In this document: positions 29,293-61,283 of the stretch, one piece after another
Numbering within the stretch: the first letter of the stretch is position 1
How the letters are laid out: every line of letters starts with the position of its first letter
Assembly: GCF_027938815.1 (NCBI RefSeq)
Contig: NZ_CP115913.1
Span: 4,002,001 to 4,066,000 of the forward strand
Direction of reading: 5' to 3'
DNA length: 64,000 bases
Origin: Oceanirhabdus sp. W0125-5
GTDB taxonomy: Bacteria > Bacillota > Clostridia > Clostridiales > Clostridiaceae
Notes under the pieces: generated by a model
The model's input: the letters and a program-made list of their open reading frames with translations, nothing else
Told to the model about the DNA's origin: nothing
The model's database searches: none
Program-made: the position numbers and the translations under genes

Positions 29293-30012
29293 ATGGAAAA
29301 CATTAAAAAATTATTAGAAAATCTAAAACCATCAAATGTATTAGATATTGGTACAGGTGTTGGTGAATTCATCAACATATTAAAAGAAGCACTTCCTTCT
29401 TACGATAAAATTACAGGTATTGATATTGAGGAAAAAGTAATTGAAATGGCAAAAAAAACTTTTAATGAACCATCAATTAATTTTGAAGTTATGAATGGAG
29501 AATCTATGGAATACTCCGATGGAGAGTTTGATCTTGTATGTCTTGCAAATTCAATCCATCACCTACCTAACATAAAAACTTCATTCGATGAGATGAAACG
29601 TGTAACCTCAGAGAATGGATATATTCTTATTAATGAAATGTTCAAAGATAATCAAACTGAAGAACAACAGACTCATGTAATTCTACATCACTGGTCTGCT
29701 AAGATTTCTAGAATGCTTGGAAAATTTCATAATGAAACCTATAATAAATCAGAAATAAAAGAAATTTTACTTGAAAATAACCTTGAAATTATTGATGAAA
29801 TCGAATTTAAATATGATGAACCTTGCAATCAAGAAGCAAAAGAACAATTATCAACACAGGTTGGATCTATTTTAGATAGTGTAAGAGACAAAATTAAAGA
29901 TCATGAAGCATACGAAGAAATCTGTTCAACAGCTGAAGATCTTAAAAAGAGAGTTTTAGATATTGGATTCCAAGGAGCTACTCAATATATGTTGTTATGT
30001 AGAAAAATTTAA
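29293..30012 (+). CDS. Class I SAM-dependent methyltransferase
   Basis: 239 residues from the ATG at 29293, six bases after AAAGGAGTG; a frame open further upstream lacks a good site. Motif I is VLDIGTGVGEF (about 16-26), acidic ribose-binding residue in GIDIEEK, then GESMEYSDGEFDLVCLANSIHHL, the motif of UbiE/MenG-type small-molecule methyltransferases. The substrate is unknown. It is convergent with the NRPS genes and its final 109 bases are repeated at 60274, so it marks the left edge of the island. Confidence 0.88.
   Translation: MENIKKLLENLKPSNVLDIGTGVGEFINILKEALPSYDKITGIDIEEKVIEMAKKTFNEPSINFEVMNGESMEYSDGEFDLVCLANSIHHLPNIKTSFDEMKRVTSENGYILINEMFKDNQTEEQQTHVILHHWSAKISRMLGKFHNETYNKSEIKEILLENNLEIIDEIEFKYDEPCNQEAKEQLSTQVGSILDSVRDKIKDHEAYEEICSTAEDLKKRVLDIGFQGATQYMLLCRKI
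29893..30001 (+). repeat. Left copy of the 109-bp direct repeat flanking the NRPS island
   Basis: The 3' end of the methyltransferase gene. It matches 60274-60382 at 108 of 109 positions; the single difference is C at 29902 versus T at 60283. Similarity ends sharply at the right edge, three codons before the stop. Confidence 0.95.
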
Positions 30013-30028
30013 ATTGCTATATACAAAA

Positions 30029-30057
30029 CCACCCCATAAAGTTCCTTTATGGGGTGG
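30029..30057. terminator. Bidirectional terminator between methyltransferase and NRPS genes
   Basis: Perfect 13-base stem CCACCCCATAAAG / CTTTATGGGGTGG with loop TTC and A/T-rich flanks; it can end transcription from both sides. Confidence 0.85.
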
Positions 30058-30090
30058 AATTTAATTTTAACTATTATATAAAGAACATTA

Positions 30091-33000
30091 TTATTTTTTA
30101 TCAAGAAACTCTAAAATAGTTTCTCCTAACTTATCTACATAAGGCGGCAATAAAATTGTACTGTGATTTCCTTGAATTTCTTGATATTCTAAAACCTCTC
30201 CTGTCATTTTACTCCATGATTCTTTATTAAATAAATGATGCTCAGTTTTTGATGCCTTAACAACTAATGTTGGAGTTTTAACCCTTTTAGCTAAGTAACA
30301 ATATCTGCACTTAGGCATTAATTCTTCACAGAAGAATTTTAAAATTTTCTTTCTATCACTAATTATATCCATCTGTCTTTCCTTAGAAATTCTATGTTTC
30401 TTTCCAATTAAATCAGTAAATCTTTTGATAGTATAGTTTTTATCTTTATTTGTTATCCTACGCCAAAAGTCTACTGTATTTAATACTCCTCTTAAAATAT
30501 CGATTATTATATGGATTTTCTTTTCTACAAAAGCTTCTTGATCTATTTCAATTAGTGCACTTACCTCTTCGCCTTGCATTTCAAGTATACTTACTATATC
30601 ATATGCCAAATATGTTCCGATACAAAATCCAGCAATTATATATGGACCTTCATTTTGAATTTCTCTTATTTCTCTGATATAGTCAGTTGTCATTTCATAA
30701 TAACTTTCTGGTAGTGGCTCACTACCATTTAATCCTTTTGGTTGAATTCCATAAACACTATAATTTTCTTCTAGTAATTTTGCTAAATGCCTGTAATAAA
30801 ATATGTCTCCATCTCCACCATGGACTATAAATATTTTCTTATTACTAGTGCTATTATTGATTTTAAAAATATGATTACTTCTTTCACCATTAACACCTCT
30901 CTGAATTATAAATTCAGATAAATCAGCTATGGTCTTATGAACCATTAAATTTGCTGGTGTGATTTCAATCTCCAATCTATTTTTAATTTCATTAGCAACT
31001 TGTATTATATTTATTGAATTTCCACCTAATTCAAAGAAATCATCATGTACATATATTTCATTTAACCCAAGCACACCTTTCCATATCTCAGCTATTACAT
31101 TTTCATGTAAACTTCTTGGTAATATGCTTTTTTTGCTATAATTCGTAATTTTAACATTGCAAAGAGCTTTCTTATCAACCTTCCCATTCGAATTTAATGG
31201 AATCTCGTCCATTTTTATGAAGTGCGCTGGAATCATATATTCAGGTAGATCTTGTTTTAAATAGTTTCTTAATTCTACGGCATCAAAAGAATTATTACAT
31301 ACTAAATAGGCACATAAATACTTCTCCTCATTCTTGTTACTTCTTGCTAATACTACTGCTTCTTTTATATTGTCATGACTAGTCAATCTATTTTCAATCT
31401 CTCCAAGTTCAATTCTAAAACCTCTTATTTTGACTTGGTTATCTATTCTTCCTAAAAACTCTATTTCTCCATCTGGCAACCATCTAGCTAAATCGCCTGT
31501 TTTATACATTATTTCCTCAAGTCTATATGGGTTATTTACAAACTTTTCAGATGTTAACTCAGGTCTATTTAAGTATCCTCGAGCCACGCCATCTCCAGCT
31601 ATACACAATTCTCCATGAACTCCAACTGGCACAATTTCATTGTTACCATCAACAATATATATATCTGTATTACTTATTGGTTTTCCTATAGTTATTTTTT
31701 GTTGATTTTTAAGGAGTTTAACAGTAGACCATATTGTCGTTTCAGTTGGTCCATAAACATTGTAAGCTTTTAGATTTTCATAAGCCTTTAAATCATTTAA
31801 TAAATTAATTGGTAATTCTTCCCCTCCAACTAATATTACTTTCATACCTTTTAAGGTCTTTTGAAATTTGCTGCTAGCTAAAAGTAACTTTAATCTTGAT
31901 GGTGTACTTTGCATAATTTCCACATTATTTTGCTCAATGATATTGCTTAAATTATCACCATCATTATGTTGCTCTTCGCTTGCAACTACTACTTTTAAAC
32001 CTTGTGTTAAAGGAACTAAAGTCTCCAATCCAAATATATCAAAAGAAATAGTTGTAATACATAGTATACTTTTATATTCTGTTAGATTTATTTCTTTACT
32101 TATGCCATGCGCGAAGTTATTAACTTGCCTATGCTCTATCATAACTCCTTTAGGTTTTCCTGTAGATCCTGATGTATAAATTACATAAGCTAAGTCATTA
32201 TTCTTACTTATTTTTTCTAGATTATTTCTATTTCCCTTAAAGATTCCTCCATCAGTAATATCTATAATAGTTCCTTCGAATTTTAATACTTCAGCAAATT
32301 CATTAGTTGTAACTAGTATTTCTACTTTTGCATCGTTAATTGTATATTCTATTCGCTCTTTAGGATGCTTAGGATCAATTGGTAAATATGCTGCTCCTGC
32401 TTTCAATATTCCCATTATTCCGATTATCATTTCAACTGATCTTTCCACCATTATCCCTACTATGGAATTAGCTTGTACTCCTTTACTTCTTAATAATCTA
32501 GCTAATTGATTTGATTTTTCATTTAATTCACTATAGGTTAGCTTTTTATCTTTAAATACAAGAGCTATATTATTTGGAGTTTTTTCAACATTATCTTCAA
32601 ATAATTCATGTATTGTCTTATCTTTAGGGTAAACTGATCTAGTATCATTAAAATTATATAATATTTCTTTCTTTTCTTTATTTGTTAACATTTGTATTTC
32701 CGAAAGCTTAGCTTGAGGATTTTTACATATACTCTTTAATATTTCTATAAAGTGTTTGCTCATTCTTCTGATAGATTCTTCTTTAAATAACTTTGTACAG
32801 TATTCAAAAGTAAATCTTACTGTTTTTTCCTCTACTACAGCATTTATAGTTATATCAAACTTTGATATCTTACTTTTAACATTTTGGGGTTTTAGTAATA
32901 GTCCATCTAAATCTAACTTTTTTCCATAGCTAATGTTTGTCATGTTAAACATTACATCAAAAAGTGGATTTCTGCTAGTATCTCTCCTAACTTGCAGCTT

Positions 33001-42786: not shown

Positions 42787-42821
42787 ATTAACCCTCCATC
42801 ATCTCCACCTTGTATTTCTTA

Positions 42822-42863
42822 TTTGTTAGAGTTAAATCAACATAATGATTTAACTCTAACAAA
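42822..42863 (-). other. Intercistronic hairpin between the two NRPS genes
   Basis: A perfect 18-base stem (arm TTTGTTAGAGTTAAATCA) with a 6-base loop. The bases after it on the minus strand (TAAGAAATACAAGG) have no T-run, so it is not a typical terminator. It may protect or divide the long mRNA and set the ratio of the subunits. Confidence 0.6.
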
Positions 42864-42887
42864 GATAATTGATTTAGCTAAATAATG

Positions 42888-45800
42888 TTAAAAATCAAAT
42901 CCTACACTTCTTAAATCACTTAACTTTTCTTCTACTTCAATAATATAATCTTCCTCTTCATTACTTAAAATATTGATTTTATCAATCTCAATATCACTAT
43001 TTTTTGATATAGTCTCAATAATTAACTTAATGTCTCTTATAGCTCTATTAATAGTTTCCTCTTTGAATAACTTTGTGCAATATTCTAAGTTAAGTTCTAA
43101 AGTTTTTTTATTATCTACTGCTCTTAAAATCATATCAACTTTTGAGACTTTTCTTTCAGTATTAAGTGGTTTTAATCTAAGACCTTTTAATTCTGAATTA
43201 GTATCATAATCTATATTTATCATATTAAACATTACATCAAACAATGGGTTTCTACTTGTATCTCTTCTTACTTGAAGCTTTTGAATTAACTCTTCAAATT
43301 GATAACTTTGATTTTCATATGCCTTTATTGAGTTCTCTTTTACTTCTCTTAAAAATTCTACATAAGTTTTTTCTCTACTCGGCTTATTTCTCATAGGGAG
43401 TGTATTTACAAACATTCCCATTACCCTTTGAAGATCTGCATGAGATCTGCCTGCTATGGGCACTCCCACTATAATATCTTCTTGACCACTATATTTTGAT
43501 AATAAAATGTTAAATACTGATAATAAAATCATGTGCATTGTGCTTCCACTCTCTTTTGCAATTATTCGTAACTCATTGCTGATTTTTTCATCTATTTTAA
43601 AACTAACATTATCCCCTTCAAAACTCTGCATTTTTGGTCTTTCATAATCATAAGGCATATTTAATACTGGTATTTCATCATTGAATCTATTAATCCAATA
43701 ATCTTCTTGTTTTTTGATTTCATCTGATTTTAAGAATTTATTCTGCCACTCTGCAAAATCTTTATATTGAATTCTTAATGGTTCTAATTCCACTCCATTA
43801 TATAAAATGATAAACTCATTAATTAAAATACTCATTGATACTCCATCTGAAATTATATGATGCATATCTATCAACAAATAGTTCTTTTCCTTACTTTCAA
43901 TGATCTCAGCTCTAAATAATGGTGCATTTTCTAAGTTAAAAGCTCTTATGAAGTTCGTAACAAGATTTATTGATTCTTTCTCATCTGTTTTTCTAAATAA
44001 CATCTTAAATTCATATTCACTATCTATCTTTTGTATTATTTCACCTTCTCTGGCTTGAAAGTATGTTTTCAAGGCATCATGTCTTTCTACTAGTTTCTTA
44101 AAGGTGTTTTCTATTCTCTCTTTGTCTATTTCTCCATCTAGTTCATAAACGACCGGCATGTTATATGCTGTACTTTCTTTTTCAAACATTTGAAGAGTAT
44201 ATAATCTTTTCTGTGCTGATGATGTTTCATAGTAATCTTTTTCTTCTGCTTTTTCTATTGTCTTATATAGATTTTCACTACTATTTTCAATGTATTTACT
44301 TATTTCTTTTATTGTGGGACTCTTAAATAACTCTTTCAATTGCAATTCTACATTTAATTCTTTATGGATTTTACTCATAAGAACTGTAGCTTTTAATGAA
44401 TGTCCTCCTATATCAAAGAAATTATTATTTATTCCTATTTTCTCTAAGCCTAATACTTCGCACCAAATCTCTACTAACTTTTCTTCAATTTCATTTCTGG
44501 GTGCTTCATACGTAGCTGTACTAATTTGATTTAAGTTCGGTTCTGGCAAAGCATTTCTATTAATCTTACCATTAGAAGTTAATGGCATCTTCTCTAGATA
44601 CACAAAATAGGATGGCACCATATAATCTGGAAGATTAACTTTTAAATAATCTCTTAATGTTGAATTATTAATTCCTTCTTCACTTACCACGTAAGCACAC
44701 AAGTACTTTTCATTGTTTTTATCATCTTTTGCCAATACAACTGCTTCGTTAATTTTTTTATGCTTGAGTAGTTTGATTTCTATCTCTCCAAGTTCAATCC
44801 TAAATCCTCTTATTTTAACCTGGTTATCAATTCTTCCTAAGAATTCAATGCTTCCATCAGGTAACCATCTTCCCAAATCGCCTGTTTTATACATTCTCCT
44901 ACCTGGTTCAAATGGATTTTCTATAAACTTTTCTTTAGTTAAATCAGTTCTGTTAAGGTATCCTCTAGCTATACCTCTACCTGAAATACATATTTCTCCT
45001 TGAGTTCCTATTGGTTGTAATTGACCATGAGTATTTGTAATATAAACTTGTGTGTTATCAATAGGCTTACCAATTAATACCTTTTCTTCTACTGAACATT
45101 TTGTTGTTATTGCATCGATAGATGTTTCGGTTGGTCCATAATGATTATATAAATTATACCCTTTAGCCATAATCTCATTTTTGATAAATGGCTCTAAATT
45201 GTCTCCTCCAAGTATAATTGTTTCTAAAGAATTTAATCTTGTTTCATTAAATAATACCTCTTTTGCCATTCTCGGAATACAATTTATGATATTTATATCA
45301 TTACATTCTACAGTTTTTCTAAATACTTTTTTATCTAAAATATCTTTCTTTCTAGGTATAAATAACTTTGCACCTGAAATTAACGCTCCCATAATCTGTT
45401 CAACACTTGGATCAAAAGTAAAATCAGTCATATTCAAGATGTTTTTTTGATAATTAATGTTATATTTGTTAATAAACCACAATATAGTATTTATTACATT
45501 TCTATGTTCTATCATTACACCTTTAGGTTTACCTGTACTTCCAGAAGTATAGATTACATAAGCTAGATTAGTCTCATCATTTATAAGAGTTAAATTATCC
45601 TTTACTCCGATGTATGATTTATCATCATCTAAAAGAATTGTTTCAACTCCAGCTTCAACCTTGCTTTCAAAATTTACTTGAGTTAATAATATAACTGCAT
45701 TACTATCTTCAAGCATATATTCTATTCTATCTTTTGGATAATTAGGATCTATAGGTAAATAAGCACCTCCAGCCTTTAATGTTCCAATCATTCCAATTAT

Positions 45801-48800
45801 CATCTCTATTGATCTTTCAGCCATAATTCCAACGATACATTCAGAACTTATTCCCTTATTTCTTAAGAGTCTAGCAATTATATTTGACTTTTCATTTAAC
45901 TCTTTGTATGTTAGTTGTTTATCTTCGTATACCACCGCGATATTATCTGGTGTTTTCTCAACTTGTTCTTCAAATAACTCCTGTAATGTTTTTCCTTTAG
46001 GGTAATCAGTTTTTGTGTTATTAAAATCATATACTATTTGATTCTTTTCATCATAAGTCAAAATTTCAATTTCTGAAAGCTTAATATCAGAATTGTTACA
46101 TATGCTATTTAGTATCTCTACATAGTGGCTTGCCATTCTTTCTATGGTTTCTTTCTTAAACAACTTTGTACAATATTCTAAGTTAAGCTTTATTATATTA
46201 TCATCATCTACTGCTGTTAATGTTAAATCAAATTTTGATATCTTACTTTCAGTAATATACTGTTTTATTTCAAGTCCATCTAGCACTGAATCTGTTCCAT
46301 AATCAATATTAGTCATGTTAAACATCACATCAAATAATGGATTTCTACTTGTATCTCTTTTTATTTGAAGCTTTTCAATCAACTCTTCAAACTGATAACT
46401 TTGATTGTCATATGCCTTTAATGAATTTTCTCTTACTTCTTTCAAAAAATCAGTGTATGTCTTTTCTCCATTAGGAGCATTCCTTAATGCTAATGTGTTT
46501 ACAAATACTCCTATAATATTTTGAAGATCTGCATGTGGTCTACCAGCAATTGGCGTCCCCACTATAATGTCTTCCTGTCCGCTGTATTTTGCTAAAAGTA
46601 TATACACCGCAGAAAGTAAAACCATATGCATTGTACTTTCGCTTTCTTTTGCCACTTTTCTTAAGTGTTCAGATACTTCTTTATGGAGTGTGAAACCAAA
46701 ATTATCGCCTTCAAAACTTTGCATCATTGGTCTTTCATAATCAGTTGGCAAATTCAGTACAGGTATTTCATCACTAAATCTATCTAACCAATATTCCTCT
46801 TGCTTTTTAATTTCATCTGATCTTAAGAATTTATTCTGCCATTCAGTAAACTCTTTGTATTGAATTCTTAATGGTTCAAGCTCCTCACCATTATATAATG
46901 CTGTAAATTCTTTTATTAATATACTCATTGATACACCATCCGATATTATATGATGCATGTCTATTAATAAATAAGTCTTTTCATTGTTTTGAATAACTTC
47001 AACTCTAAATAATGGTGCTTTATTGATATCAAATGTTCTTATGAAATTCTTCATAATACTTTCCTCATCTGAAGTTACACTACTAACTAATAAATTAAAT
47101 TCAAACTTATTATCTATCTTTTGTACAATTTCACCATCAACTGAATAGAAACATGTTCTCAATGCCTCATGTCTTTCAACTAATCTTTTGAAAGCCTTTT
47201 CGATTTTTACTTTATCAACATTTCCTAGTAACTGATAAACTGCTGGCATGTTATAAACTATACTATCTTTTTCAAATTGCTGAAGAGTATATAATCTCTT
47301 TTGTGCTGAGGAAGCTTCATAATATTCTTGCTCATCTACTATACCAATTGCAACGTATGGACTTTCACAAGAATTAGCAATATAAATACTTAATTCTTTT
47401 ATAGTTGGACTCTTAAATATCTCTTTTAATGGTACCTCAATAAATAATTCTTTATGAATCTTACTCATAAGCACAGCGGCATTCAAAGAGTGTCCACCTA
47501 AATCAAAGAAGTTATCATTTATTCCTACTCTATCTACCCCCAAAACTTCACACCAAATTTCAACTAATTTTTCATCTATTTCATTTCGTGGTGCTTCATA
47601 TTTTGAAACAATTAGCTTGCTTATATTTGGTTCTGGTAAAGCTTTTTTGTTGATTTTCCCATTAGCAGTAAGAGGAATTTTTTCTATTTGCACAAAGTAT
47701 GCTGGTATCATGTATTCCGGTAAACTCTCTTTTAAATGATTTCTTAATTCGGAACTATCTATCTCTTTATCCATTACAACATATGCACATAAATATTTTT
47801 CTTTCTTATCACTAACTCTAGCTATTACTATTGCTTTTTCAACATTGATTTGATTTAAGAGTCTATTTTCTATCTCACTAAGTTCTATTCTAAATCCTCT
47901 TATTTTAACCTGATTATCAATTCTACCCATAAATTCTATATTACCATCAGGTAACCATCTTGCTAAATCTCCTGTTTTGTACATTCTTTCTCCATGGTCA
48001 AATGGGTTATTAACAAATTTTTCTAATGTTAATTCTGGTCTATTTAAATAACCTCTTGCTAACCCATCTCCACTAATGCATATTTCTCCTGGTACTCCTA
48101 TTGGCATAAGTTTATCATTATTAACAATGTATATCTTATTATTTTGTAATGGTCTTCCTATTGGTATGCTGTTATATTTTACATCTTTAGCTATTGAGTA
48201 CTTAGATGCGTATATAGTATCTTCTGTTGGTCCGTAAATATTTTCTAATTTGATATTATTGAACTTGTTAAAGAAATTATTTGCGATAATTCCCTTAAGT
48301 TCTTCACCAGCAGAAAATACATATTTCAGACTCTTAATTTTATCAATATCCTCTTCATTTATTTCATTAAACATACTCAGCATTGCAGGTACAAAGTTAA
48401 TATGGGTTACCTTATATTTGTTTATGGCATTATTAATTGAGTTAATATTGTTCTCCTCATTTTCTTTGAGAATTGCCAATGTACCATTCCCAACAAACCA
48501 GCCAAATAACTCAGTAACTGAAACATCAAAAGTATACTTAGTTTTTAATAAGTAAACATCAGTATCTTTTAATGGATAATTTTTTTCCATAAACATTAAC
48601 GTATTAACTGCACTTCTATGTTCAATTAATACACCTTTTGGATTTCCAGTAGAACCTGATGTATATATGACATAAGCTAAGTCACTGCTTTTATTTGTTG
48701 TAGTTAAATTACTACAATCTCCTTCAAAATTATTTTCATCTGTTAAATCAATTAATTGTCCTTTGAAATCAATCATTCCAGCATATTTGCTTGTAGTAAC

Positions 48801-51800
48801 TAAAAAATCTACTTTTGCATCATTCAGTGTATACTCTATTCTTTCCTTAGGATTTTTATAATCTATAGGCAAGTATGCTCCACCAGCCTTTAAGATTCCA
48901 ATTATTCCTATGATCATTTCAAATGATCTTTCTACTATAATTCCAACTATTGACTCAGGACCGATTCCAATATTTCTTAAATTTCTTGCTAGTTGATTTG
49001 ACTTTTTATTTAACTCACTATAAGTTAACTTCTTATCTTCAAACATCACAGCTATATTGTCAGGCGTCTTTTCTACTTGTTCTTCAAATATCTCATTTAT
49101 TGTTTTATCTTTCGGATAATCTGACTTAGTATCATTAAAATCAAATAGTATTTGATCCTTTTCTTTTTCTGTTATTATTTCTATTTCCGAAAGTTTAACT
49201 TCATAATCTCTACATATAGCTCTTAAAATCTTTAAATATTGACTTCCTAACCTTTTAATAGTTTCTTCATTAAATAGTTTTATACAATACTCGAAGCAAA
49301 ATTCTAAAGATTTTTTATTTTCTATTACTGTCAATGTTAAATCAAATTTTGATATTTTACTACCTATCTCTTGCTCTCTTAATTTAAGATTATCTAATTC
49401 TATATCTGCACTATTGTTAATGTTAATCATATTAAACATAACATCAAATAATGGATTTCTACTTGTATCTCTTCTAATCTCAAGTTTCTGAATTAACTCC
49501 TCAAACTGATAACTTTGATTCTCATATGCATTAAAAGAATTATCCTTTACTTCCTCCAAGAAATCTATATATGATTTTTCTCCAGAAGGAAAATTTCTTA
49601 ACGCTAATGTATTTACAAACATTCCAATTATATTTTCAGTATCTGAATGAGCTCTTCCAGCTATAGGAGTTCCTATAATAATATCTTCTTGTCCACTATA
49701 TTTAGATAAAAGTATATACATGGCAGATATTAATACCATATTCATTGTACTGCCAGTATCTTTTACAACTTTTTTCAGTGCATTCAAAGTCTCTTCGTCT
49801 ACAGATAAACTTATATTCTCCCCTTCATAGCTCTTTATTAACGGTCTCTCATAATCTGTTGGCATGTTTAAAACTGGAATGTCATCATTGAACTGATTCA
49901 TCCAATATTTTTCTTGTTTTTTCATTTCTTCACTTTGCAAGAATTTATTCTGCCATTCCGCGAAATCTTTGTATTGAATCTTTAAAGGACTTAATTCTTT
50001 ACTATTATATAGAGCTGAAAATTCTTTTATTAATATACTCATTGATATTCCATCTGAAATTATGTGATGCATATCTATAAATAGATAATTTCTTTCATTA
50101 TTATTAATAATGCTTACTCTAAATAATGGTCCCTTATCTAACTTAAAAGGTCTTACTACTTTGCTACTAATATCAGCTATATATTTTTTATTTTCTTTTA
50201 TGTCATCCAGTTTAAACTCATTTTTCTTATCTATCTTCTGAACTATTTCACCATTAATAGTCTCAAAATATGTTCTTAATGATTCATGCCTTTCAAATAA
50301 TTTATTAAATACATTTTCAATTTTTTCTTTGTTTATATCACCATCTAACTCGTATAAAGCAGGCATATTATATGCTGTACTGTCTTTATCTAATTGATAA
50401 AGAGTAAACAACCTTTTTTGAGCTGAAGATACTTTGAAGTGTTCTTTTTCCATTACTTTCGGAATATTTATATATGAATTATGAGTACTATTTTCAACAA
50501 AGTTACTTATTTCTTTTATAGTTACTCTCTTAAAGAATTCCTTTAATGGTACTTCAACCTGTAACTTTTTATGAATTTTATTCTTTACTGATGTAGCTTT
50601 TAAGGAGTGTCCGCCCAAATCGAAGAAGTTATCATTTATACTTATTTTATTTACTCCTAATACTTCACTCCATATTTCAACTAACATCTCTTCTATATGA
50701 TTTCTAGGTGATTCAAACTCAGTAAAAGCAGCCTCATTTATATTTGGTTCTGGTAAAACTCTTCTGTTAATTTTACCATTTTCGGTCAATGGGATTTTAT
50801 CTAAATGTACATAATATAGAGGTACCATATATTCTGGTAAACTCTGTTTTAGATAATCAATTATATTAGAATTTTCAATTTCATCCTCACAAACTATATA
50901 AGCACATAGATACTTTTCACTATTATTATTTTTTAACATTACTACAGCTTCGTTAATTTTTTCATGAGTTAATAATCTATTTTCTATCTCACCTAGCTCT
51001 ATTCTAAAACCTCTTATTTTTACTTGATTATCTATTCTTCCTAAAAACTCAATATTCCCATCTGGCAGCCACCTTGCTAAATCTCCAGTTTTATACATTC
51101 TCCTTCCTTGTTCAAATGGACTTTGTATAAATTTTTTATCTGTTAACTCCTGTCTATTTAAGTAGCCTCTTGCTAATCCATCACCTGTTATGCATAACTC
51201 GCCTTGAACACCTATTGGAAGCATCTTATTTTTTGAGTCTAAGATAAATACTTTTGTATTTGCAATCGGTGTTCCAATTAAAATCTTATTCTTCTCACTT
51301 ATGATTTCATAAATAGTTGTGCATACACTATTTTCTGTAGGACCATACTCATTAAATAATCTTGTATTACTAAATATCTCAAAATGTTTCCTCACAACCT
51401 CTTCATGTATACTTTCTCCGCCTACAGTTATTCTTGTTAACGTAGTAGTATCTTTTAAACATTCCTCTAACATTGTTTTGTAAAATGCAGGTGTAATAAG
51501 AAAGTTTGTTACTTTGTTGCTAATTATTATATGCTTTAAGTAATCTGTATCTAATATTCTATCTTGATTCATTACAACTAATTTGGATCCTGTAATTAAA
51601 GGAGTCATTATATCTTGTACTGAACTATCAAAACTAAAGGAAGGCATTTGCAAAGTGACATCATTTTCATCAAATCCATAGTATTTTCTTCTCCAAAATA
51701 ATGTATTAATTATACTTTTGTGCTCAATCAATACACCTTTAGGATTACCAGATGTTCCTGAAGTATAAATCACATATGCCAGATTATTACAATTATTATT

Positions 51801-54800
51801 TTTTTCTAAATTATGTTTTGATTCTTCATAGATTTTTTTATTTCTTATATCTAATACTTCGCCTTTAAATGATACACTTGTCAAATGCTCATTTGTAGTC
51901 AATAATATATTACATTCACTATCTTTAAGAATATACCCTACTCTGTCTTTTGGAGTCTTTGGATCTATAGGTAAGTATGCCCCTCCAGATTTTAATATTC
52001 CAATTACACCAGTTATCATTTCTAATGATCTTTCTACCATTATTCCTATTATATTATCTGGTTTTATACCATTTTTTCTCAATGTTCTTGCTAATTGATT
52101 TGATTTTTCATTTAACTCCTTATATGTTATTTGATTTTCTTCAAATACCACTGCGATTTTATCTGGTGTCTTTTTTACTTGTTCTTCAAATAATTCAGGT
52201 AGTGTCTTATCATCAGGATAATCTTTTATTGTATTATTGAAATCAAAAAATATTTTATTCTCTTCTTTTTCAGATAAGATAGATATTTCAGAAATTTTCA
52301 CTTCACAATCTTTACATATGCTATTTAATATTACTATGTAATGTTCTCCAATTCTCTTAATAGTTTCCTTTTTAAATAATTTTGTACAATATTCCAAACT
52401 TATGTCAATGGACTTATCATATTCTGTAGCTGTAAAGGTTAAGTCAAATTTTGATATATTATTCTTAATAAGTTCTTGTTTGAGAATAAGACCACTGATA
52501 TCTGTTTCTAAACCATAATCAATATTAGCCATATTGAACATTACATCAAATAAAGGGTTTCTGCTTGGATCTCTCCTAACTATTAATCTGTCAATTAAGT
52601 CTTCGTATTGATAATTTTGATTTTCATATGCCTTTAGTGAATTTTCCTTTACATCTTTTAAAAATTCAATAAATGTCTTTTGTCCACTTGGATAATTTCT
52701 CAATGCTAACGTATTAACAAACATTCCCATAATGTTTTGAGTGTCTGCATGATTTCTTCCTGATGTTGGTGTTCCTATAACTATATCTTCTTGCCCACTG
52801 TATTTTGATAAAAGAATATACACTGCAGAAATTAATACCATATGCATTGTACTATCACTTTTCTTTGCAATACTTTTTAAACTATTTTTTAATTTTTCAT
52901 CAAGACTAAAGTTTAAAGTATTTCCTTCAAAATTCTTCATTGCAGGTCTCTCATAATCAGTTGGAAGATTTAATATTGGTATTTCGTCACTGAAACTGCT
53001 TGTCCAATATTCCTCTTCCTTTTTCATTTTGTCCGATTTCAGAAATTTGTTGTGCCATTCCGAAAAATCTTTGTACTGAATTTTTAAAGGTTTTAATTTT
53101 GCTCCATTATATAATGCAGCAAACTCTTTTATTAATATACTCATTGATATTCCATCAGATATTATGTGATGCATATCTATTAATAAATATGTCTTTTCTT
53201 TATTTTCTACAAACTCAATTCTAAACAGTGGTCCATTTTCTAAATCAAAAGGTTTTATAAAATCTTTTATTATATTCTCCAATTTATCAACATGAACTTT
53301 TTTAACTATCAGTTTAAAAACTATTTTATTGCTTATCCTCTGCACTATTTCATCATCTACTGATTTAAAATTGGTTCTTAATATTTCATGTCTTTCAACA
53401 AGTTTTGTAAATGTATTTTCAATTTTAGTTTTATCTATATTCCCCTGTAACTCAAACAAAGATGGCATATTATATGCAATACTATCTTTGTCAAATTGAT
53501 TAATAGTATATAACCTTTTTTGTGGAGATGATACTTGGTAAAACTCCTTTTCTTCTACTTTACCTATACTTTCAAATGATTCTAGTTTTTTATTATCTAA
53601 ATAATGACTTATCTCTTTTATTGTTGGATACTTAAATAGTTCCTGTAATGAAACTTCCATGTTTAATTGTTTATGAATCCTACTAACAAGAAGAGTTGCT
53701 TTTAGTGAATGTCCTCCAAGGTCAAAAAAGTTGTCACTTATTCCAATTCTTTTTACATTTAATACCTCAGACCATATTTTAACTAACTTTTCTTCTATCA
53801 TGTTTCTTGGTGCCTCATATTTTATTGCAGTAGTTTCATTTATATTAGGTTCTGGCAAAGCTTTTCTATTAATTTTCCCATTTGTCGTTAATGGAAGTTT
53901 ATCTAAATATACAAACTTAGATGGAATCATATAGTCTGGTAAACTGTCTTTCAAGAATTTTCTCAATTCCAAACTCTCTACATTGTTTTCAACTACCACA
54001 TAAGCACATAAATATTTTTCTTTTTTCTCATTCTCCTTTACTAAAACTACAGCTTCTTTACTATTTTGATGACTTAATATTCTATTTTCTATCTCTCCAA
54101 GTTCTATTCTAAATCCTCTTATTTTAACTTGATTGTCAATCCTACCTAAAAATTCAATATTACCATCTGGCAACCATCTTGCTAAGTCTCCAGTTTTATA
54201 TAATTTCTTTCCTTTTTCATATTGGTTTTCAATAAATTTTTTATTTGTTAATTCAGGTCTATTAAGATATCCTCTCGCTACCCCTTCCCCTGAGACGCAT
54301 AATTCACCTGGAATCCCAATGGGAACAAATTTATTTTTAGAATCCAATATTAAAACCTTTGTATTTGATATTGGCTTTCCTATTAAGACTTTATTACTAT
54401 ATCCATGGAATTCATATATAGTAGAACATACACTATTTTCTGTTGGTCCATATTCATTATAAAGTTTTGTATTACTTAAAGTTTCAAAATGTTTTGTTAC
54501 AACATCTTCATGAATACTTTCTCCCGCAACTGTAATCTTTCTTAATGAAGTTACTTCATTTAAACATTCATCTAATAATGTACTATAAAATGCTGGTGTA
54601 ATAAGAAAGTTTGATACATTATTCCTTATTATAATTCTTTTTAAATACTCTATATCCAATCTCTTTTCTTGATTAATTAATACTAGCTTTGATCCAGATA
54701 TTAATGGTGTCATAATGTCTTCAACAGAGCTGTCAAAACTAAAAGATGGAATTTGTAAAATAGAGTCATGGCTATCAAATTTATAATATTCTTTTCTCCA

Positions 54801-57800
54801 TAACAAAGTATTCCTTATATTTTTCTGCTCAATAAGTACTCCTTTTGGATTTCCAGTTGTTCCAGATGTATATATAATATAGGCTAAATTCTCACAATTA
54901 TTATTTCTTGCTAAATTACTTGTATCTCCTTTATATATCTCATTGTTTGATACTTGTAATACATCCCCTTGAAAATCTATACTCTTCGAAAATTGTTTTT
55001 TTGTTAATAACAGCTTACAATCACTATCTCTAAGCATATATTCTATTCTTTCTATAGGCGAAGCAGGGTCAATTGGCAGATATGCTCCACCTGATTTTAA
55101 TACACCAAGAATGCTAACAATCATCTCAATTGATCTTTCAACCATTATTCCAATTATATTTTCGGGTTGTACACCTTTTTTTCTTATTACTCTAGCAAGT
55201 TGATTTGCTTTTTCATTTAACTCTTTGTAGGTTAAATGTATATCTTCAAACACCAATGCAGGATTATCAGGAGTCTTTTCAACTTGTTCTTCAAATAATT
55301 CATGTATTGTTTTATTTTCAGTATATTCTGCCTTCGTATTATTAAACTCATATAATATTTGATTCTTCTCTTTTTCAGTGATAATATCAATTTCTGAAAG
55401 CTTAATCTCAATACTTTCACAAACATCATTTAGTATTTTTTTATAATGTTTACTCATTCTATTAAGGGTTTCTTCTTTAAATAACTTTGTACAATACTCA
55501 AAGTTAAACTCAATATTCTTTTCATTTTCTATTGCAGTTAATGTTAAATCAAATTTTGCTACTTTATTATCTATAGAACATTGTTTAAGTATCAGTTCAT
55601 TTACTTCTATATATCTTTCAAATTTTATATTAGTTAAATTAAAAGTCACATCAAAGATTGGATTTCTACTTGTGTCTCTTCGTACTTTTAATTTTTCTAT
55701 TAATTCTTCAAGTTGATAACTTTGATTTTCATATGCTTTAATTGAATTGTATTTTACTTCTTTTAAGAACTCCATATATGATTTATCTCCATTTGGATTA
55801 TTTCTTAAAGGTAAAGTATTTACAAACATTCCTGTTATATTCTCAAGATCTGAATGTGCTCTTCCTGCAATTGGAGTTCCTATTACTATATCATCTTGTC
55901 CACTATATTTTGATAATAGAATATTGAATGCTGACAGTAAAATCATATGCATTGTACTTTCACATTCTTTTGCAATATTTCTTAATGCCTCAGTAGTTTT
56001 TTCATCTATGGAAAACTTTAAGTTAGCTCCCTCAAAACTTTGTATTACAGGTCTTTCATAATCAGTAGGCATATTCAATATTGGTATTTCATCATTAAAT
56101 CTATTTATCCAATATTCTTCTTGCTTTTTCATCTCTTCTGATTTTAAGAATATATTCTGCCATTCAGCAAAATCTTTGTATTGAATTCTTAATGGTTCTA
56201 ATTCTTCTCCGTTATATAAAGCAATAAATTCTTTAATTAATATGCTCATTGATACTCCATCTGAGATTATGTGGTGCATATCTATTAGTAAGAAATTTTT
56301 ATCATTACTCTCTAAAATCTCAACTCTAAATAATGGAGAATTTTCTAAATTAAATGGTCTAATAAACTTATTTATATAGTTTTCTATTTCAACAGTGGCT
56401 TTTATGTTACTTGTAATTTTGAGTTCATTTTTACAATCAATTTTTTGTACTATTTCACCTTCAATTATTTCAAAATAAGTTCTTAAAGATTCATGTCTGT
56501 TAACTAATTTTCTAAAGGTATCTTGAATTTTTTCTCTATCAATTTTTCCTGCTAATTCATAAACCACAGGCATATTATACGCAATACTTTCATTATCAAA
56601 CTGTTGAATTGTATATATTCTTTTCTGTGCTGCTGATATCTCATAGTATTCTTTTTCTTTAAGTTTTTTTATATTCTCATATTTCTTTTCATTACTCTTT
56701 TGAATATAGTTACTTATTTCTTTAATTGTTGGTTTCATAAACAGAACATTTAGGGGCACTTCTATATCTAATTTTTTATGAATTTTGCTTATAACTGTTG
56801 TGGCCTTTAATGAATGTCCCCCTATATCAAAGAAATTATCATTAATTCCAACTTTCTTTATTTCCAATACATCACACCAGATACTAACTAATATTTTTTC
56901 TACTTTATTCCTCGGAGCTTCATATTTTGAAATTATAAGCTCATTTATGTTTGGTTCTGGTAGTGCTTTTTTATCTACTTTACCATTAATGGTTAAAGGA
57001 ATATTATCAATATTTACAAAGAATGAAGGTATCATATACTCAGGTAAACTTTCTTTCAGATAGTCTCTTATTTTAGTATTATCAATTATTTCATTAGATA
57101 CTAGATAAGCGCATAAATATTTATCCTTTCCTTCCTTCTCCCTTGAAATAACAATCGCATCTCTTATATCTCTAAATTGCACTAACCTGCTCTCTATTTC
57201 TGCTAGTTCAATCCTAAATCCTCTTATTTTTACTTGCTTATCTTTTCTTCCCAAAAATTCAATATTTCCATCTGGTAACCATCTTGCCAAATCACCTGTT
57301 TTATACATTCTTTGACCATTTTCAAAAGGATTTTTAATAAATTTTTGTTCTGTTAACTCTGGTTTATTTAAGTATCCTCTTGCTAATACCTCTCCTGCTA
57401 TACACAGCTCTCCCGTAACACCTACTGGCAGAAGCTTATGCTCTGTATTTATAATGTATACTTTTGAATTATTTACTGGTTTACCTATTGGTATATTGTT
57501 AACTACTTCATCTACAAAATAACTAGTTGTTACAACTGTGGCTTCTGTCGGTCCATAATTATTAACTAATTGATATTCATTGCTTTTAAAATAATTTAGT
57601 TTATCTCCTCCAGTTAATAGGAATCTTAAAGAACCTGTTTTGATATTTATAAAATCTTCACAAATTTGTGTTGGCAAGAAACTTATTGTAATATTTTTTT
57701 CATTATAATATTTACTTAACTTATCTACATTGAATCTTAGTTCATTATCAATAATATGAATTTGAGCACCTTTTATAAGATATGGCCATGTTTCCCAAAC

Positions 57801-59777
57801 ACATGCATCAAATGAAAAACTAGAATATACTGTACTTCTATCCTTTTCACTTACCTCAAACTTAGTATTATGATTTTTACATAAGTTTATTAATGATTTA
57901 TGCTCTATCATTACACCTTTGGGTTTTCCAGTTGTCCCTGAAGTATAAATTACATAAGCTAGATTGCTAGACTTATTTATTTTTTTCAAGTTACTTGAAT
58001 CCTTATGAAATATCTCTTCATTTAATAAATCAATAATTCTTCCACTAAACTCTATGTCATCTATCAAATTTGTTTTACTTAATAATATTTTACTTTCACT
58101 ATCATGAAGCATGTATTCTTTTCTCTCTCTTGGATATTCATGATCTATAGGTAAATATGCTCCTCCTGCCTTTAAAATCCCTAAAATTCCTATTATCATT
58201 TCTAATGACTTGTCTACCATTATTCCTACTATTGTATCCGGTCGGACTTCTTTTTCCCTTAGCACTTTAGCTAATTGATTTGATTTTTCATTTAGTTCTT
58301 TATATGTTAAATGTTTATCCCCAAATACAACTGCAACATTGTTTGGTGTTTTCTCAACTTGCTGTTCAAATAATTCAGGTATAGTTTTATCATTAGGGTA
58401 CTCTGCTTTTGTATCATTAAAATCATAAAGTATTTGCTTCTTTTGTTCCTCTGTAATTAATTCTATATCTGACACATTAATATTCATTTTATCTACAATT
58501 TGTATAATTACATATTCAAAGTTTTTTACTAGATTTTCAACGAACACAGAGTAGAAACTATTATTATATGAAATTTTCACATTATACTCATTAAAAATAG
58601 ATATTTGTACTGCTAAGTTATAGTTTGTCTTTTCTTCAATACTATAATCTACAATATTTATTTTACTGTTTTCATCTACTTGAGTATCTAAAGGATAATT
58701 CTCTATCACAACCAAATTATCAAATAATTGTTTATTTTCTGTACTATATTTTGATTGTATATCAACTAAAGATGAATACTGAAACTCTTCATGATTTCTT
58801 AAGTCAAGATCCAATTTTCTTAGTACTGTAGTAATTTTTTCATCTTTATAAGCCTTAACTCTCAAAGGAACTGTATTAATAAATAAACCTACAGTATTTT
58901 CAATGTTTTTAATATGATGCGGTCTTCCTGATAAAGTTACTCCAAAAATAATGTCCTTCTTTGAATCATACTTCTGTTGTAAAATTCCCCATGCTGTATA
59001 TAATACAGTAGATATTGATACTCTGTTTTTCTTAGCAAAATTTTTAATTTTGTTTTTAACTTGATTATCTATTGAATATACATATTCTCTGTTAGAGTTA
59101 AGTTTGTGATCATTATAATTTACATAAAAAGTAGAATTCATATTTTCGTAATTTTCTAAATATTTCTCCCAATATTCTTTCTCTTTATTAATATCTCTAT
59201 TTTTATTCCAATTTAAAAATTCTTTATAGGTAGCTTTTTTGTTGTATTTTACTTTCTCACCATTTAATAAAGAATTATATACTTGAATAAACTCTTTTAT
59301 TAGTATTCCGTTACTCCACCCATCATATACTATGTGATGGATTTTTAAAAAACATTGTGCTTTTTCTTCACTCAATTTACAAATATAGAATTTTACACAC
59401 TCTTCTTCTATGTTGATTCTTTCTCCTTTTATTTTCTCTGAGATTTCTGATAATTTATTTTTTTTATCAACATCTTCAAAATTTGATATATCATAACTTT
59501 CTATAGAAACTTTGTAATTCTTTAACACAATTTGCACTGGCTTATCTAATTTCTTCCACCTAAAAACGGTACGTAACATTTCATTGTTATCTAACAAATC
59601 TTCCCAAGTTTTTTTCAAAATATTTATATCAATTTTTCCTTGAATAATAAAACTAATCTCTTCCTGATATTCACTAGTTTCCTCGTCCTTAATATAATAA
59701 AAAAGAATGCCTTTTTGTGTATCAGATAATCCCATAATATCCTTAACATTATCTTTTCTTAAATTATTACTCCCCAT
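42888..59777 (-). CDS. Nonribosomal peptide synthetase, subunit 1 (modules 1-5 plus condensation domain 6)
   Basis: 5629 residues, among the largest proteins of such a genome. Five C-A-T modules of about 1040 residues, then a sixth C domain at the C-terminus. C1 HHIVYDG ~146, A1 core FDACVWE ~656, T1 ~985; C2 ~1166, A2 ~1678, T2 ~2020; C3 ~2204, A3 ~2712, T3 ~3052; C4 ~3236, A4 ~3747, T4 ~4090; C5 ~4273, A5 ~4787, T5 ~5122; C6 ~5306. Pocket codes read by hand: A1 DAWFLGNVVK (exact Leu code), A2 DSELTAEVCK and A3 DSQLTGEVCK (Tyr-like), A4 DVTNFAIIYK (no match I know), A5 DPENIGHIDK (acidic, fits Orn/Lys). C domains carry intact HHxxxDG. A condensation domain before A1 suggests the first Leu is N-acylated, so the product may be a lipopeptide. 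The start has AAGGGGG upstream. Confidence 0.96.
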   Translation of the reverse strand: MGSNNLRKDNVKDIMGLSDTQKGILFYYIKDEETSEYQEEISFIIQGKIDINILKKTWEDLLDNNEMLRTVFRWKKLDKPVQIVLKNYKVSIESYDISNFEDVDKKNKLSEISEKIKGERINIEEECVKFYICKLSEEKAQCFLKIHHIVYDGWSNGILIKEFIQVYNSLLNGEKVKYNKKATYKEFLNWNKNRDINKEKEYWEKYLENYENMNSTFYVNYNDHKLNSNREYVYSIDNQVKNKIKNFAKKNRVSISTVLYTAWGILQQKYDSKKDIIFGVTLSGRPHHIKNIENTVGLFINTVPLRVKAYKDEKITTVLRKLDLDLRNHEEFQYSSLVDIQSKYSTENKQLFDNLVVIENYPLDTQVDENSKINIVDYSIEEKTNYNLAVQISIFNEYNVKISYNNSFYSVFVENLVKNFEYVIIQIVDKMNINVSDIELITEEQKKQILYDFNDTKAEYPNDKTIPELFEQQVEKTPNNVAVVFGDKHLTYKELNEKSNQLAKVLREKEVRPDTIVGIMVDKSLEMIIGILGILKAGGAYLPIDHEYPRERKEYMLHDSESKILLSKTNLIDDIEFSGRIIDLLNEEIFHKDSSNLKKINKSSNLAYVIYTSGTTGKPKGVMIEHKSLINLCKNHNTKFEVSEKDRSTVYSSFSFDACVWETWPYLIKGAQIHIIDNELRFNVDKLSKYYNEKNITISFLPTQICEDFINIKTGSLRFLLTGGDKLNYFKSNEYQLVNNYGPTEATVVTTSYFVDEVVNNIPIGKPVNNSKVYIINTEHKLLPVGVTGELCIAGEVLARGYLNKPELTEQKFIKNPFENGQRMYKTGDLARWLPDGNIEFLGRKDKQVKIRGFRIELAEIESRLVQFRDIRDAIVISREKEGKDKYLCAYLVSNEIIDNTKIRDYLKESLPEYMIPSFFVNIDNIPLTINGKVDKKALPEPNINELIISKYEAPRNKVEKILVSIWCDVLEIKKVGINDNFFDIGGHSLKATTVISKIHKKLDIEVPLNVLFMKPTIKEISNYIQKSNEKKYENIKKLKEKEYYEISAAQKRIYTIQQFDNESIAYNMPVVYELAGKIDREKIQDTFRKLVNRHESLRTYFEIIEGEIVQKIDCKNELKITSNIKATVEIENYINKFIRPFNLENSPLFRVEILESNDKNFLLIDMHHIISDGVSMSILIKEFIALYNGEELEPLRIQYKDFAEWQNIFLKSEEMKKQEEYWINRFNDEIPILNMPTDYERPVIQSFEGANLKFSIDEKTTEALRNIAKECESTMHMILLSAFNILLSKYSGQDDIVIGTPIAGRAHSDLENITGMFVNTLPLRNNPNGDKSYMEFLKEVKYNSIKAYENQSYQLEELIEKLKVRRDTSRNPIFDVTFNLTNIKFERYIEVNELILKQCSIDNKVAKFDLTLTAIENEKNIEFNFEYCTKLFKEETLNRMSKHYKKILNDVCESIEIKLSEIDIITEKEKNQILYEFNNTKAEYTENKTIHELFEEQVEKTPDNPALVFEDIHLTYKELNEKANQLARVIRKKGVQPENIIGIMVERSIEMIVSILGVLKSGGAYLPIDPASPIERIEYMLRDSDCKLLLTKKQFSKSIDFQGDVLQVSNNEIYKGDTSNLARNNNCENLAYIIYTSGTTGNPKGVLIEQKNIRNTLLWRKEYYKFDSHDSILQIPSFSFDSSVEDIMTPLISGSKLVLINQEKRLDIEYLKRIIIRNNVSNFLITPAFYSTLLDECLNEVTSLRKITVAGESIHEDVVTKHFETLSNTKLYNEYGPTENSVCSTIYEFHGYSNKVLIGKPISNTKVLILDSKNKFVPIGIPGELCVSGEGVARGYLNRPELTNKKFIENQYEKGKKLYKTGDLARWLPDGNIEFLGRIDNQVKIRGFRIELGEIENRILSHQNSKEAVVLVKENEKKEKYLCAYVVVENNVESLELRKFLKDSLPDYMIPSKFVYLDKLPLTTNGKINRKALPEPNINETTAIKYEAPRNMIEEKLVKIWSEVLNVKRIGISDNFFDLGGHSLKATLLVSRIHKQLNMEVSLQELFKYPTIKEISHYLDNKKLESFESIGKVEEKEFYQVSSPQKRLYTINQFDKDSIAYNMPSLFELQGNIDKTKIENTFTKLVERHEILRTNFKSVDDEIVQRISNKIVFKLIVKKVHVDKLENIIKDFIKPFDLENGPLFRIEFVENKEKTYLLIDMHHIISDGISMSILIKEFAALYNGAKLKPLKIQYKDFSEWHNKFLKSDKMKKEEEYWTSSFSDEIPILNLPTDYERPAMKNFEGNTLNFSLDEKLKNSLKSIAKKSDSTMHMVLISAVYILLSKYSGQEDIVIGTPTSGRNHADTQNIMGMFVNTLALRNYPSGQKTFIEFLKDVKENSLKAYENQNYQYEDLIDRLIVRRDPSRNPLFDVMFNMANIDYGLETDISGLILKQELIKNNISKFDLTFTATEYDKSIDISLEYCTKLFKKETIKRIGEHYIVILNSICKDCEVKISEISILSEKEENKIFFDFNNTIKDYPDDKTLPELFEEQVKKTPDKIAVVFEENQITYKELNEKSNQLARTLRKNGIKPDNIIGIMVERSLEMITGVIGILKSGGAYLPIDPKTPKDRVGYILKDSECNILLTTNEHLTSVSFKGEVLDIRNKKIYEESKHNLEKNNNCNNLAYVIYTSGTSGNPKGVLIEHKSIINTLFWRRKYYGFDENDVTLQMPSFSFDSSVQDIMTPLITGSKLVVMNQDRILDTDYLKHIIISNKVTNFLITPAFYKTMLEECLKDTTTLTRITVGGESIHEEVVRKHFEIFSNTRLFNEYGPTENSVCTTIYEIISEKNKILIGTPIANTKVFILDSKNKMLPIGVQGELCITGDGLARGYLNRQELTDKKFIQSPFEQGRRMYKTGDLARWLPDGNIEFLGRIDNQVKIRGFRIELGEIENRLLTHEKINEAVVMLKNNNSEKYLCAYIVCEDEIENSNIIDYLKQSLPEYMVPLYYVHLDKIPLTENGKINRRVLPEPNINEAAFTEFESPRNHIEEMLVEIWSEVLGVNKISINDNFFDLGGHSLKATSVKNKIHKKLQVEVPLKEFFKRVTIKEISNFVENSTHNSYINIPKVMEKEHFKVSSAQKRLFTLYQLDKDSTAYNMPALYELDGDINKEKIENVFNKLFERHESLRTYFETINGEIVQKIDKKNEFKLDDIKENKKYIADISSKVVRPFKLDKGPLFRVSIINNNERNYLFIDMHHIISDGISMSILIKEFSALYNSKELSPLKIQYKDFAEWQNKFLQSEEMKKQEKYWMNQFNDDIPVLNMPTDYERPLIKSYEGENISLSVDEETLNALKKVVKDTGSTMNMVLISAMYILLSKYSGQEDIIIGTPIAGRAHSDTENIIGMFVNTLALRNFPSGEKSYIDFLEEVKDNSFNAYENQSYQFEELIQKLEIRRDTSRNPLFDVMFNMININNSADIELDNLKLREQEIGSKISKFDLTLTVIENKKSLEFCFEYCIKLFNEETIKRLGSQYLKILRAICRDYEVKLSEIEIITEKEKDQILFDFNDTKSDYPKDKTINEIFEEQVEKTPDNIAVMFEDKKLTYSELNKKSNQLARNLRNIGIGPESIVGIIVERSFEMIIGIIGILKAGGAYLPIDYKNPKERIEYTLNDAKVDFLVTTSKYAGMIDFKGQLIDLTDENNFEGDCSNLTTTNKSSDLAYVIYTSGSTGNPKGVLIEHRSAVNTLMFMEKNYPLKDTDVYLLKTKYTFDVSVTELFGWFVGNGTLAILKENEENNINSINNAINKYKVTHINFVPAMLSMFNEINEEDIDKIKSLKYVFSAGEELKGIIANNFFNKFNNIKLENIYGPTEDTIYASKYSIAKDVKYNSIPIGRPLQNNKIYIVNNDKLMPIGVPGEICISGDGLARGYLNRPELTLEKFVNNPFDHGERMYKTGDLARWLPDGNIEFMGRIDNQVKIRGFRIELSEIENRLLNQINVEKAIVIARVSDKKEKYLCAYVVMDKEIDSSELRNHLKESLPEYMIPAYFVQIEKIPLTANGKINKKALPEPNISKLIVSKYEAPRNEIDEKLVEIWCEVLGVDRVGINDNFFDLGGHSLNAAVLMSKIHKELFIEVPLKEIFKSPTIKELSIYIANSCESPYVAIGIVDEQEYYEASSAQKRLYTLQQFEKDSIVYNMPAVYQLLGNVDKVKIEKAFKRLVERHEALRTCFYSVDGEIVQKIDNKFEFNLLVSSVTSDEESIMKNFIRTFDINKAPLFRVEVIQNNEKTYLLIDMHHIISDGVSMSILIKEFTALYNGEELEPLRIQYKEFTEWQNKFLRSDEIKKQEEYWLDRFSDEIPVLNLPTDYERPMMQSFEGDNFGFTLHKEVSEHLRKVAKESESTMHMVLLSAVYILLAKYSGQEDIIVGTPIAGRPHADLQNIIGVFVNTLALRNAPNGEKTYTDFLKEVRENSLKAYDNQSYQFEELIEKLQIKRDTSRNPLFDVMFNMTNIDYGTDSVLDGLEIKQYITESKISKFDLTLTAVDDDNIIKLNLEYCTKLFKKETIERMASHYVEILNSICNNSDIKLSEIEILTYDEKNQIVYDFNNTKTDYPKGKTLQELFEEQVEKTPDNIAVVYEDKQLTYKELNEKSNIIARLLRNKGISSECIVGIMAERSIEMIIGMIGTLKAGGAYLPIDPNYPKDRIEYMLEDSNAVILLTQVNFESKVEAGVETILLDDDKSYIGVKDNLTLINDETNLAYVIYTSGSTGKPKGVMIEHRNVINTILWFINKYNINYQKNILNMTDFTFDPSVEQIMGALISGAKLFIPRKKDILDKKVFRKTVECNDINIINCIPRMAKEVLFNETRLNSLETIILGGDNLEPFIKNEIMAKGYNLYNHYGPTETSIDAITTKCSVEEKVLIGKPIDNTQVYITNTHGQLQPIGTQGEICISGRGIARGYLNRTDLTKEKFIENPFEPGRRMYKTGDLGRWLPDGSIEFLGRIDNQVKIRGFRIELGEIEIKLLKHKKINEAVVLAKDDKNNEKYLCAYVVSEEGINNSTLRDYLKVNLPDYMVPSYFVYLEKMPLTSNGKINRNALPEPNLNQISTATYEAPRNEIEEKLVEIWCEVLGLEKIGINNNFFDIGGHSLKATVLMSKIHKELNVELQLKELFKSPTIKEISKYIENSSENLYKTIEKAEEKDYYETSSAQKRLYTLQMFEKESTAYNMPVVYELDGEIDKERIENTFKKLVERHDALKTYFQAREGEIIQKIDSEYEFKMLFRKTDEKESINLVTNFIRAFNLENAPLFRAEIIESKEKNYLLIDMHHIISDGVSMSILINEFIILYNGVELEPLRIQYKDFAEWQNKFLKSDEIKKQEDYWINRFNDEIPVLNMPYDYERPKMQSFEGDNVSFKIDEKISNELRIIAKESGSTMHMILLSVFNILLSKYSGQEDIIVGVPIAGRSHADLQRVMGMFVNTLPMRNKPSREKTYVEFLREVKENSIKAYENQSYQFEELIQKLQVRRDTSRNPLFDVMFNMINIDYDTNSELKGLRLKPLNTERKVSKVDMILRAVDNKKTLELNLEYCTKLFKEETINRAIRDIKLIIETISKNSDIEIDKINILSNEEEDYIIEVEEKLSDLRSVGFDF
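54224..55219 (-). repeat. Near-identical A-domain block, module 2 copy
   Basis: Partner of the block at 34635-35630. The inferred pocket code is identical in both, so the same residue should be loaded at positions 2 and 8 of the peptide. Confidence 0.75.
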
Positions 59778-60150
59778 ACTTACCCCCTTATTAAAATGAT
59801 ATTCCTCTTTTTTTGATTTAATTTTGACATTAAAATATACATATATTTCTATGAATATTAAAAAACATAATATGTCAAACTTTTTTTGTAATACATGATA
59901 AAAGAATATTTAATTGCAAACATCAAATAATACCTTTAATATAAGAATTTATTTATGTTGAATCATCGAATAAATTTTTACATTATATTTAATAATAATT
60001 AAATTTTAACATTTTTACACAATATATGTCAATTTTTTTTTTACATATGTTGATTGATATTTTATTTCTCCAACTTTAAACAAAATACTCTATGAATTAG
60101 CTATAAATATTTTATATAGCTCTTAAATATTATCATTATCTTTATCTTTA
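59778..60150. other. Upstream region of the NRPS operon
   Basis: Extremely AT-rich, with no supported gene. It holds the leader and promoter candidates: TTGACA occurs twice on the minus strand, at 60032-60027 (with TTAAAA 17 bases on) and at 59878-59873 (no good -10). Confidence 0.5.
60004..60032 (-). promoter_or_regulatory. Candidate promoter of the NRPS operon
   Basis: Perfect TTGACA, 17-base spacer, weak -10 TTAAAA, read on the minus strand. It implies a leader of about 220 bases before the 5629-residue gene. Confidence 0.4.
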
Positions 60151-60273
60151 TTTGAAAAAAATACTTTTGACAATCATCATCATTATTATTTCCATTACTT
60201 ATATAAATGTACTAATTCACCTTTACTTCCCTAATTATAAAATTATTCTATACTTAATAACATTCGTAGTAAG

Positions 60274-60382
60274 ATTAAAGATTATGAAGCATACGAAGAA
60301 ATCTGTTCAACAGCTGAAGATCTTAAAAAGAGAGTTTTAGATATTGGATTCCAAGGAGCTACTCAATATATGTTGTTATGTA
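60274..60382 (+). repeat. Right copy of the 109-bp direct repeat flanking the NRPS island
   Basis: Same orientation as 29893-30001, 108 of 109 identical, 30.4 kb apart; between the two lie only the two NRPS genes and their flanks. Confidence 0.95.
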
Positions 60383-60441
60383 AGAAACGACAACTATCCA
60401 TAAGTAAACCTAGTAGAAGAATACACCTTAAAAGAAGTTGA
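60274..60441 (+). pseudogene. Detached 3' fragment of the methyltransferase gene
   Basis: Reads IKDYEAYEEICSTAEDLKKR and on to MLLCKK in the methyltransferase frame, then 19 unrelated codons to a stop at 60441. Nothing of the N-terminal two thirds is present and no start is attached. Bases 60274-60382 are the right copy of the 109-bp repeat. It is a remnant, not a functional gene. Confidence 0.85.
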
Positions 60442-61061: not shown

Positions 61062-61283
61062 AATTATCACTCCTTAAAATATATTATATATTTATTAACT
61101 GATCTTATGTAATTTATGATTTTATCTCTTTATATTGTTTCTAAAATGCAATGTTTCATTAATAATGAAACGAGTTACCCCTGTATTGTTTAATGACAAT
61201 ATAATTATAATTTCTCGAAGAAAAATATCCTACGTTGTCCGTTGTCCACTTTCAACTGTCCATTTCTTTTGAAAGTTTTCCAT
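61062..61283. other. Intergenic region with dispersed repeat, copy 2
   Basis: No gene. Bases 61147-61230 resemble 9927-10015 (CAATGTTTCATTAA ... AAATATCC) and run into GTTGTCCGTTGTCCAC-type simple sequence ahead of the hydA terminator. Confidence 0.4.

Follow-up and report, generated by a model that had tools for sequence, protein, structure and literature searches.

A near-perfect 109-bp direct repeat around an NRPS gene pair in Oceanirhabdus: a candidate scar of recombination between diverged methyltransferase 3′ ends

The DNA analysed here (the window: 64,000 nt, positions 4,002,001 to 4,066,000 on the forward strand of NZ_CP115913.1, assembly GCF_027938815.1) comes from Oceanirhabdus sp. 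W0125-5, the genome of which is a single contig of 5,775,129 bp (5.78 Mb). Two large NRPS genes, a pair of the peptide-antibiotic type, lie in it between an intact methyltransferase gene and a [FeFe]-hydrogenase operon, and are bracketed by a direct repeat (Table 1; coordinates throughout are those of the window unless given in Mb). NRPS-2 is laid out as four condensation–adenylation–carrier units followed by a thioesterase, and nine repeated module units can be counted across NRPS-1 and NRPS-2 together. Between the copies of the repeat there is no other complete gene and no other long non-antisense ORF; the composition of the pair is in line with that of the rest of the window.

Table 1. Features at the NRPS locus and its borders, in window coordinates.
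Feature	Position	Strand	Remarks
Intact class I SAM-dependent methyltransferase, 239 aa	29293-30012	+	Pfam Methyltransf_11, 8e-20; 3′ part holds the left repeat copy
Left repeat copy	29893-30001	+	Local alignment; ends 3 codons before the methyltransferase stop
13-bp perfect inverted repeat, terminator-like	30029-30057		Between the convergent methyltransferase and NRPS-2 genes
NRPS-2, 4231 aa	30091-42786	-	4 condensation, 4 adenylation and 4 carrier domains, and a thioesterase
NRPS-1, 5629 aa, multimodular	42888-59777	-	No thioesterase match
Promoter-like site, TTGACA-18-TAAAAT	60003-60032	-	Upstream of NRPS-1, before the right copy; consensus match only
Putative 3′-end stub of another, diverged methyltransferase	60248-60388	+	82% to the G001 methyltransferase over 141 bp (BLASTN)
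Right repeat copy	60274-60382	+	Local alignment; core of the stub, probably homogenised
Exported-protein gene, apparently frameshifted in an A8 run	60550-61068	-	111-aa intact ORF at 60550-60885
Conserved right flank, [FeFe]-hydrogenase operon	61286-64000	-	G001 homology resumes at 61286

Similar NRPS modules occur at two further places in the genome, at 2.66 and 4.76 Mb, the flanks of which hold no comparable repeat, only a 79-bp match of 75% identity that belongs to a dispersed family. For the NRPS thioesterase, a family-wide search (207 genomes, the source genome included) returned only weak matches in the 206 others, and the closest sequence in a class-wide search of 391 genomes was 53% identical, came from another family and belonged to a multimodular NRPS distinct from this one, with unrelated surroundings; among plasmids, only generic NRPS and PKS matches below 60% identity were recovered.

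Local alignment and the ORFs bear out the repeat as the initial annotation had described it, with 108/109 identities between copies in the same orientation and no complete gene between them other than the NRPS pair. The sole mismatch (C/T) gives His to Tyr, and the alignment can be extended by five bases with one 1-nt gap, to 30005/60387. A whole-genome search placed the repeat sequence at exactly two positions in the contig, and a scan of the window found it to be the only repeat of at least 24 bp linking both sides of the NRPS region; chance origin is excluded. The methyltransferase gene itself runs on past the end of the repeat by 11 bp, with three codons, to its end at 30012, leaving the stop outside the repeat.

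Sister-species comparison was made with one congener genome, G001, in which the methyltransferase has an ortholog of 80% amino acid identity and the same synteny. The next best matches in the source genome are ordinary paralogs of 21–39% identity, with no second full-length close paralog left there, and outside the genus identity was at most 41% (207 family genomes, including the source). A scan of genome contigs with the methyltransferase gave only a distant Lentisphaerae match.

Both sides of the locus are shared with G001: a purine gene, cyclophilin, ABC transporter, GntR, HATPase and the methyltransferase on the left, and the hydrogenase operon on the right. Flank proteins are mostly 80–95% identical between the two genomes, with lower values for the cyclophilin and ABC-2 membrane genes. 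At fourfold sites the hydrogenase genes (61334-63990) are 82–92% identical to those of G001, compared with 51–62% for the left flank, a likeness that may reflect either strong codon bias or recent exchange. Between the flanks, the species-specific stretch (30013-61286) measures ~31.3 kb (2.3 kb in G001), which makes it wider than the repeat-bounded block.

An empty site in a relative, with one repeat joining the methyltransferase directly to the exported-protein gene, had been proposed as the counterpart of this arrangement, and was not seen in G001. The syntenic site there is without the NRPS genes and has a single resident methyltransferase 3′ end, and the G001 genome as a whole gave only stand-alone adenylation-domain matches and no thioesterase match at the threshold used; between methyltransferase and hydrogenase, however, lie an ArsR-type gene and another methyltransferase gene, with no exported-protein gene there. 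This 1.8-kb pair has a counterpart at 1.92 Mb in the source genome, 90% identical and with unrelated flanks, and would appear to be a small unit that has moved. Since the pair occupies the interval in G001 and is found elsewhere in the source genome, the interval is a variable site. With one congener compared, gain of the NRPS genes here and their loss in G001 are not separable.

Several further features lie towards the right border. The exported-protein gene has its signal-peptide start in one frame and its body in another, the split apparently marking a pseudogene, a phase-variable site or a sequencing error, and it has a distant paralog at 3.97 Mb. A dispersed intergenic repeat of ~130 bp lies at 61132-61262, with another window copy near 9916-10026. 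Copies of this family were found at at least ~40 places in the genome, at 70–81% identity and on both strands (40 of 587 candidates scored), in places as inverted neighbours, and had no Rfam match. The idea that the right flank is a kept ancestral 3′ flank, prompted by AAGTTRAGAGTGG-like sequence here and in G001, was rejected, as sequence of this kind is also present at other places in the genome. A TTG-started 62-aa ORF (60152-60340) with a signal-peptide-like start straddles the right boundary and enters the right copy in another frame, and is possibly a decayed gene start.

Beyond its identical core, the right copy parts company with the left. Methyltransferase homology reaches 26 bp upstream of the repeat, in a diverged form that matches G001 in register (binomial p ~2e-5 at a 35% match rate): over these 26 bp the right copy agrees with G001 at 20/26 positions and the left at 18/26, while left and right agree with each other at only 12/26. 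The two also agree at just 4/10 positions in the 10 bp downstream of the core, where the right copy continues with a 20-aa tail of its own. The identical tract is thus embedded in homologous yet diverged sequence (108/109 vs 12/26 and 4/10), the stretches behind this mosaic reading being short (26 and ~10 bp) and the contrast between core and edges strong (Fisher p 8e-14). Over nine codons, left–right differences fall 5/2/7 at codon positions 1/2/3, and the upstream peptides SILNNIRSK (right) and SILDSVRDK share I, L, R and K through different synonymous codons. Third-position bias and synonymous changes together point to a gene that diverged while its protein was constrained, and not to a decaying copy. 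On these grounds, a second methyltransferase, of the same family as the resident one, most likely left the right copy behind as a stub, with a divergence close to that of the sister-species gene. Its 109 bp, which have sharp edges, were most likely homogenised recently, either through gene conversion or through a crossover that involved repair. Within the core each copy is ~84% identical to G001, and this equal distance gives no sign of the direction in which the tract was homogenised. Sequence upstream of the stub (59778-60247) matched the methyltransferase no better than shuffles did, and the same was true of G001 gap sequence compared with that downstream of the stub.

The initial annotation had seen no integrase, and that observation stands: neither integrase, recombinase nor tRNA was found in the 64-kb window, and no recombinase Pfam matched among the window ORFs scanned, a set made up of all but small antisense ORFs inside other genes. 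No transposase lies near the repeat. A zinc-ribbon IS1595 match is present at 1111-2535, 27 kb from the repeat, and a tandem paralogous DUF885 gene pair at 4912-8946. A composite transposon or IS-borne insertion was considered and rejected, there being no flanking IS and the repeat measuring 109 bp against the short target duplication of 2–14 bp. Rfam gave nothing, and distant DNA searches with the repeat-edge sequences found no match in phage and plasmid collections; viral contigs likewise gave no match. No donor molecule with a methyltransferase tail joined to NRPS genes was found in the collections searched, in which close congeners are hardly sampled.

Taken together, these observations lean towards the repeat being the scar of a recombination in which the 3′ ends of two diverged methyltransferases took part; the NRPS genes would probably have reached this variable site by recombination of the homologous or homology-facilitated kind. 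On this reading, RecA-type recombination with the methyltransferase 3′ region as its anchor would have brought DNA with the NRPS pair and a methyltransferase tail into the interval that separates the methyltransferase from the hydrogenase operon, whether through a Campbell-like single crossover or through homology-facilitated illegitimate recombination, and with no dedicated integrase involved. The identical 109-bp tract would then be the exchanged or repaired stretch, although conversion could have occurred long after the NRPS genes arrived. Homologous or illegitimate recombination had been named at the outset as one option, and the mosaic of a 109-bp core within diverged sequence supports it.

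The main rival, to which a lesser though appreciable probability is given, holds that an older relic stub, from a tandem or foreign methyltransferase, was already on the site, that the arrival of the NRPS genes was unrelated, and that later conversion from the intact gene homogenised the 109 bp. It predicts the same mosaic pattern and so cannot be separated from the recombination scar by sequence alone, and it accords with a site that varies between the two species (the ArsR/methyltransferase pair in G001, its counterpart at 1.92 Mb here); against this, two independent events would be needed, and ectopic conversion over only 109 bp at a distance of 30 kb would be expected to be uncommon. Simple insertion with duplication, in which the resident methyltransferase 3′ end was copied as the NRPS genes inserted and the edges of the copy decayed later, would account for same orientation, near identity and the absence of the NRPS block from G001. 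That an insertion had duplicated the gene end was also among the earlier suggestions, but the right copy runs upstream into a different methyltransferase lineage. Beyond the core it is nearer to G001 (20/26) than to its supposed parent (12/26), with third-position bias, and one would not expect decay confined to the edges of a 108/109 core, all of which makes this reading improbable.

An integrative element, using a site-specific recombinase with the 109-bp repeat as its attachment site and the recombinase since lost or acting from elsewhere, is less probable again, and is the least credible of the readings weighed. The layout is island-like and lies at the 3′ end of a gene, but no recombinase is present between the repeats or was found in the window, phage and plasmid collections gave no match to the edges, and diverged homology continues past the repeat. 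Nor is the stop codon restored: the repeat is without the last three codons and stop, and its right copy is of the other lineage, which tells against the initial proposal of an element that inserts at a gene's 3′ end and rebuilds it. Only marginally better placed, and still very improbable, is an assembly artefact in which a wrong join at the repeat put the NRPS block here. Repeat-bounded blocks would be classic places for misjoins; on the other side are the single 5.78-Mb contig, the distinct flanks at each copy, and an NRPS composition that suits the window, with similar modules at two other genome loci.

The kind of event favoured here, a recombination scar, is already known. Homology-facilitated illegitimate recombination is the process proposed in PMC5361080 for T6SS effector–immunity modules of Vibrio cholerae, and PMC6382021 discusses it for B. 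subtilis. As in the V. cholerae model (PMC5361080), new genes lie beside a conserved anchor, a displaced or partial gene is left downstream, and an integrase is not needed; unlike it, two NRPS genes form the cargo, what remains is a 141-bp stub whose core has been homogenised, and the process at this locus would be one reconstructed from its products. Campbell-type single-crossover integration likewise leaves direct repeats of the shared segment around the insert and recombinant genes on each side, but such repeats are usually as long as the homology used, whereas here 109 bp of identity lie inside diverged sequence, so that a repaired tract must be assumed under this route. Genomic islands and ICEs at gene 3′ ends share with the locus a direct repeat at the 3′ end and a cargo absent from a relative, but differ from it in that there is no integrase here, the repeat is without the stop, and the gene is not rebuilt.

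An identical tract of 109 bp is long enough for RecA-dependent recombination, and loss of 30.4 kb by recombination of that kind across the repeat is possible in principle. The excision product would be a methyltransferase with a longer, different C-terminus, CKKRQLSISKPSRRIHLKRS replacing CRKI. It is a far step from there to the NRPS pair as a recombinase-free mobile cassette, passing as a circle between related clostridia, with the methyltransferase 3′ tail as docking site and RecA-dependent integration and loss, and such a cassette would seem highly unlikely.

Recombination is an ordinary means by which genomes gain DNA, and it may bring a biosynthetic locus of this size to a core site of the chromosome with no mobile-element machinery. 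The locus also gives reason for caution, in that an island can have a near-perfect direct repeat on either side without this being an attachment site: here, the sequence beyond the repeat shows the copies to be of different parents. If further congeners confirm this reading, the scar would be a direct footprint of the exchange tract.
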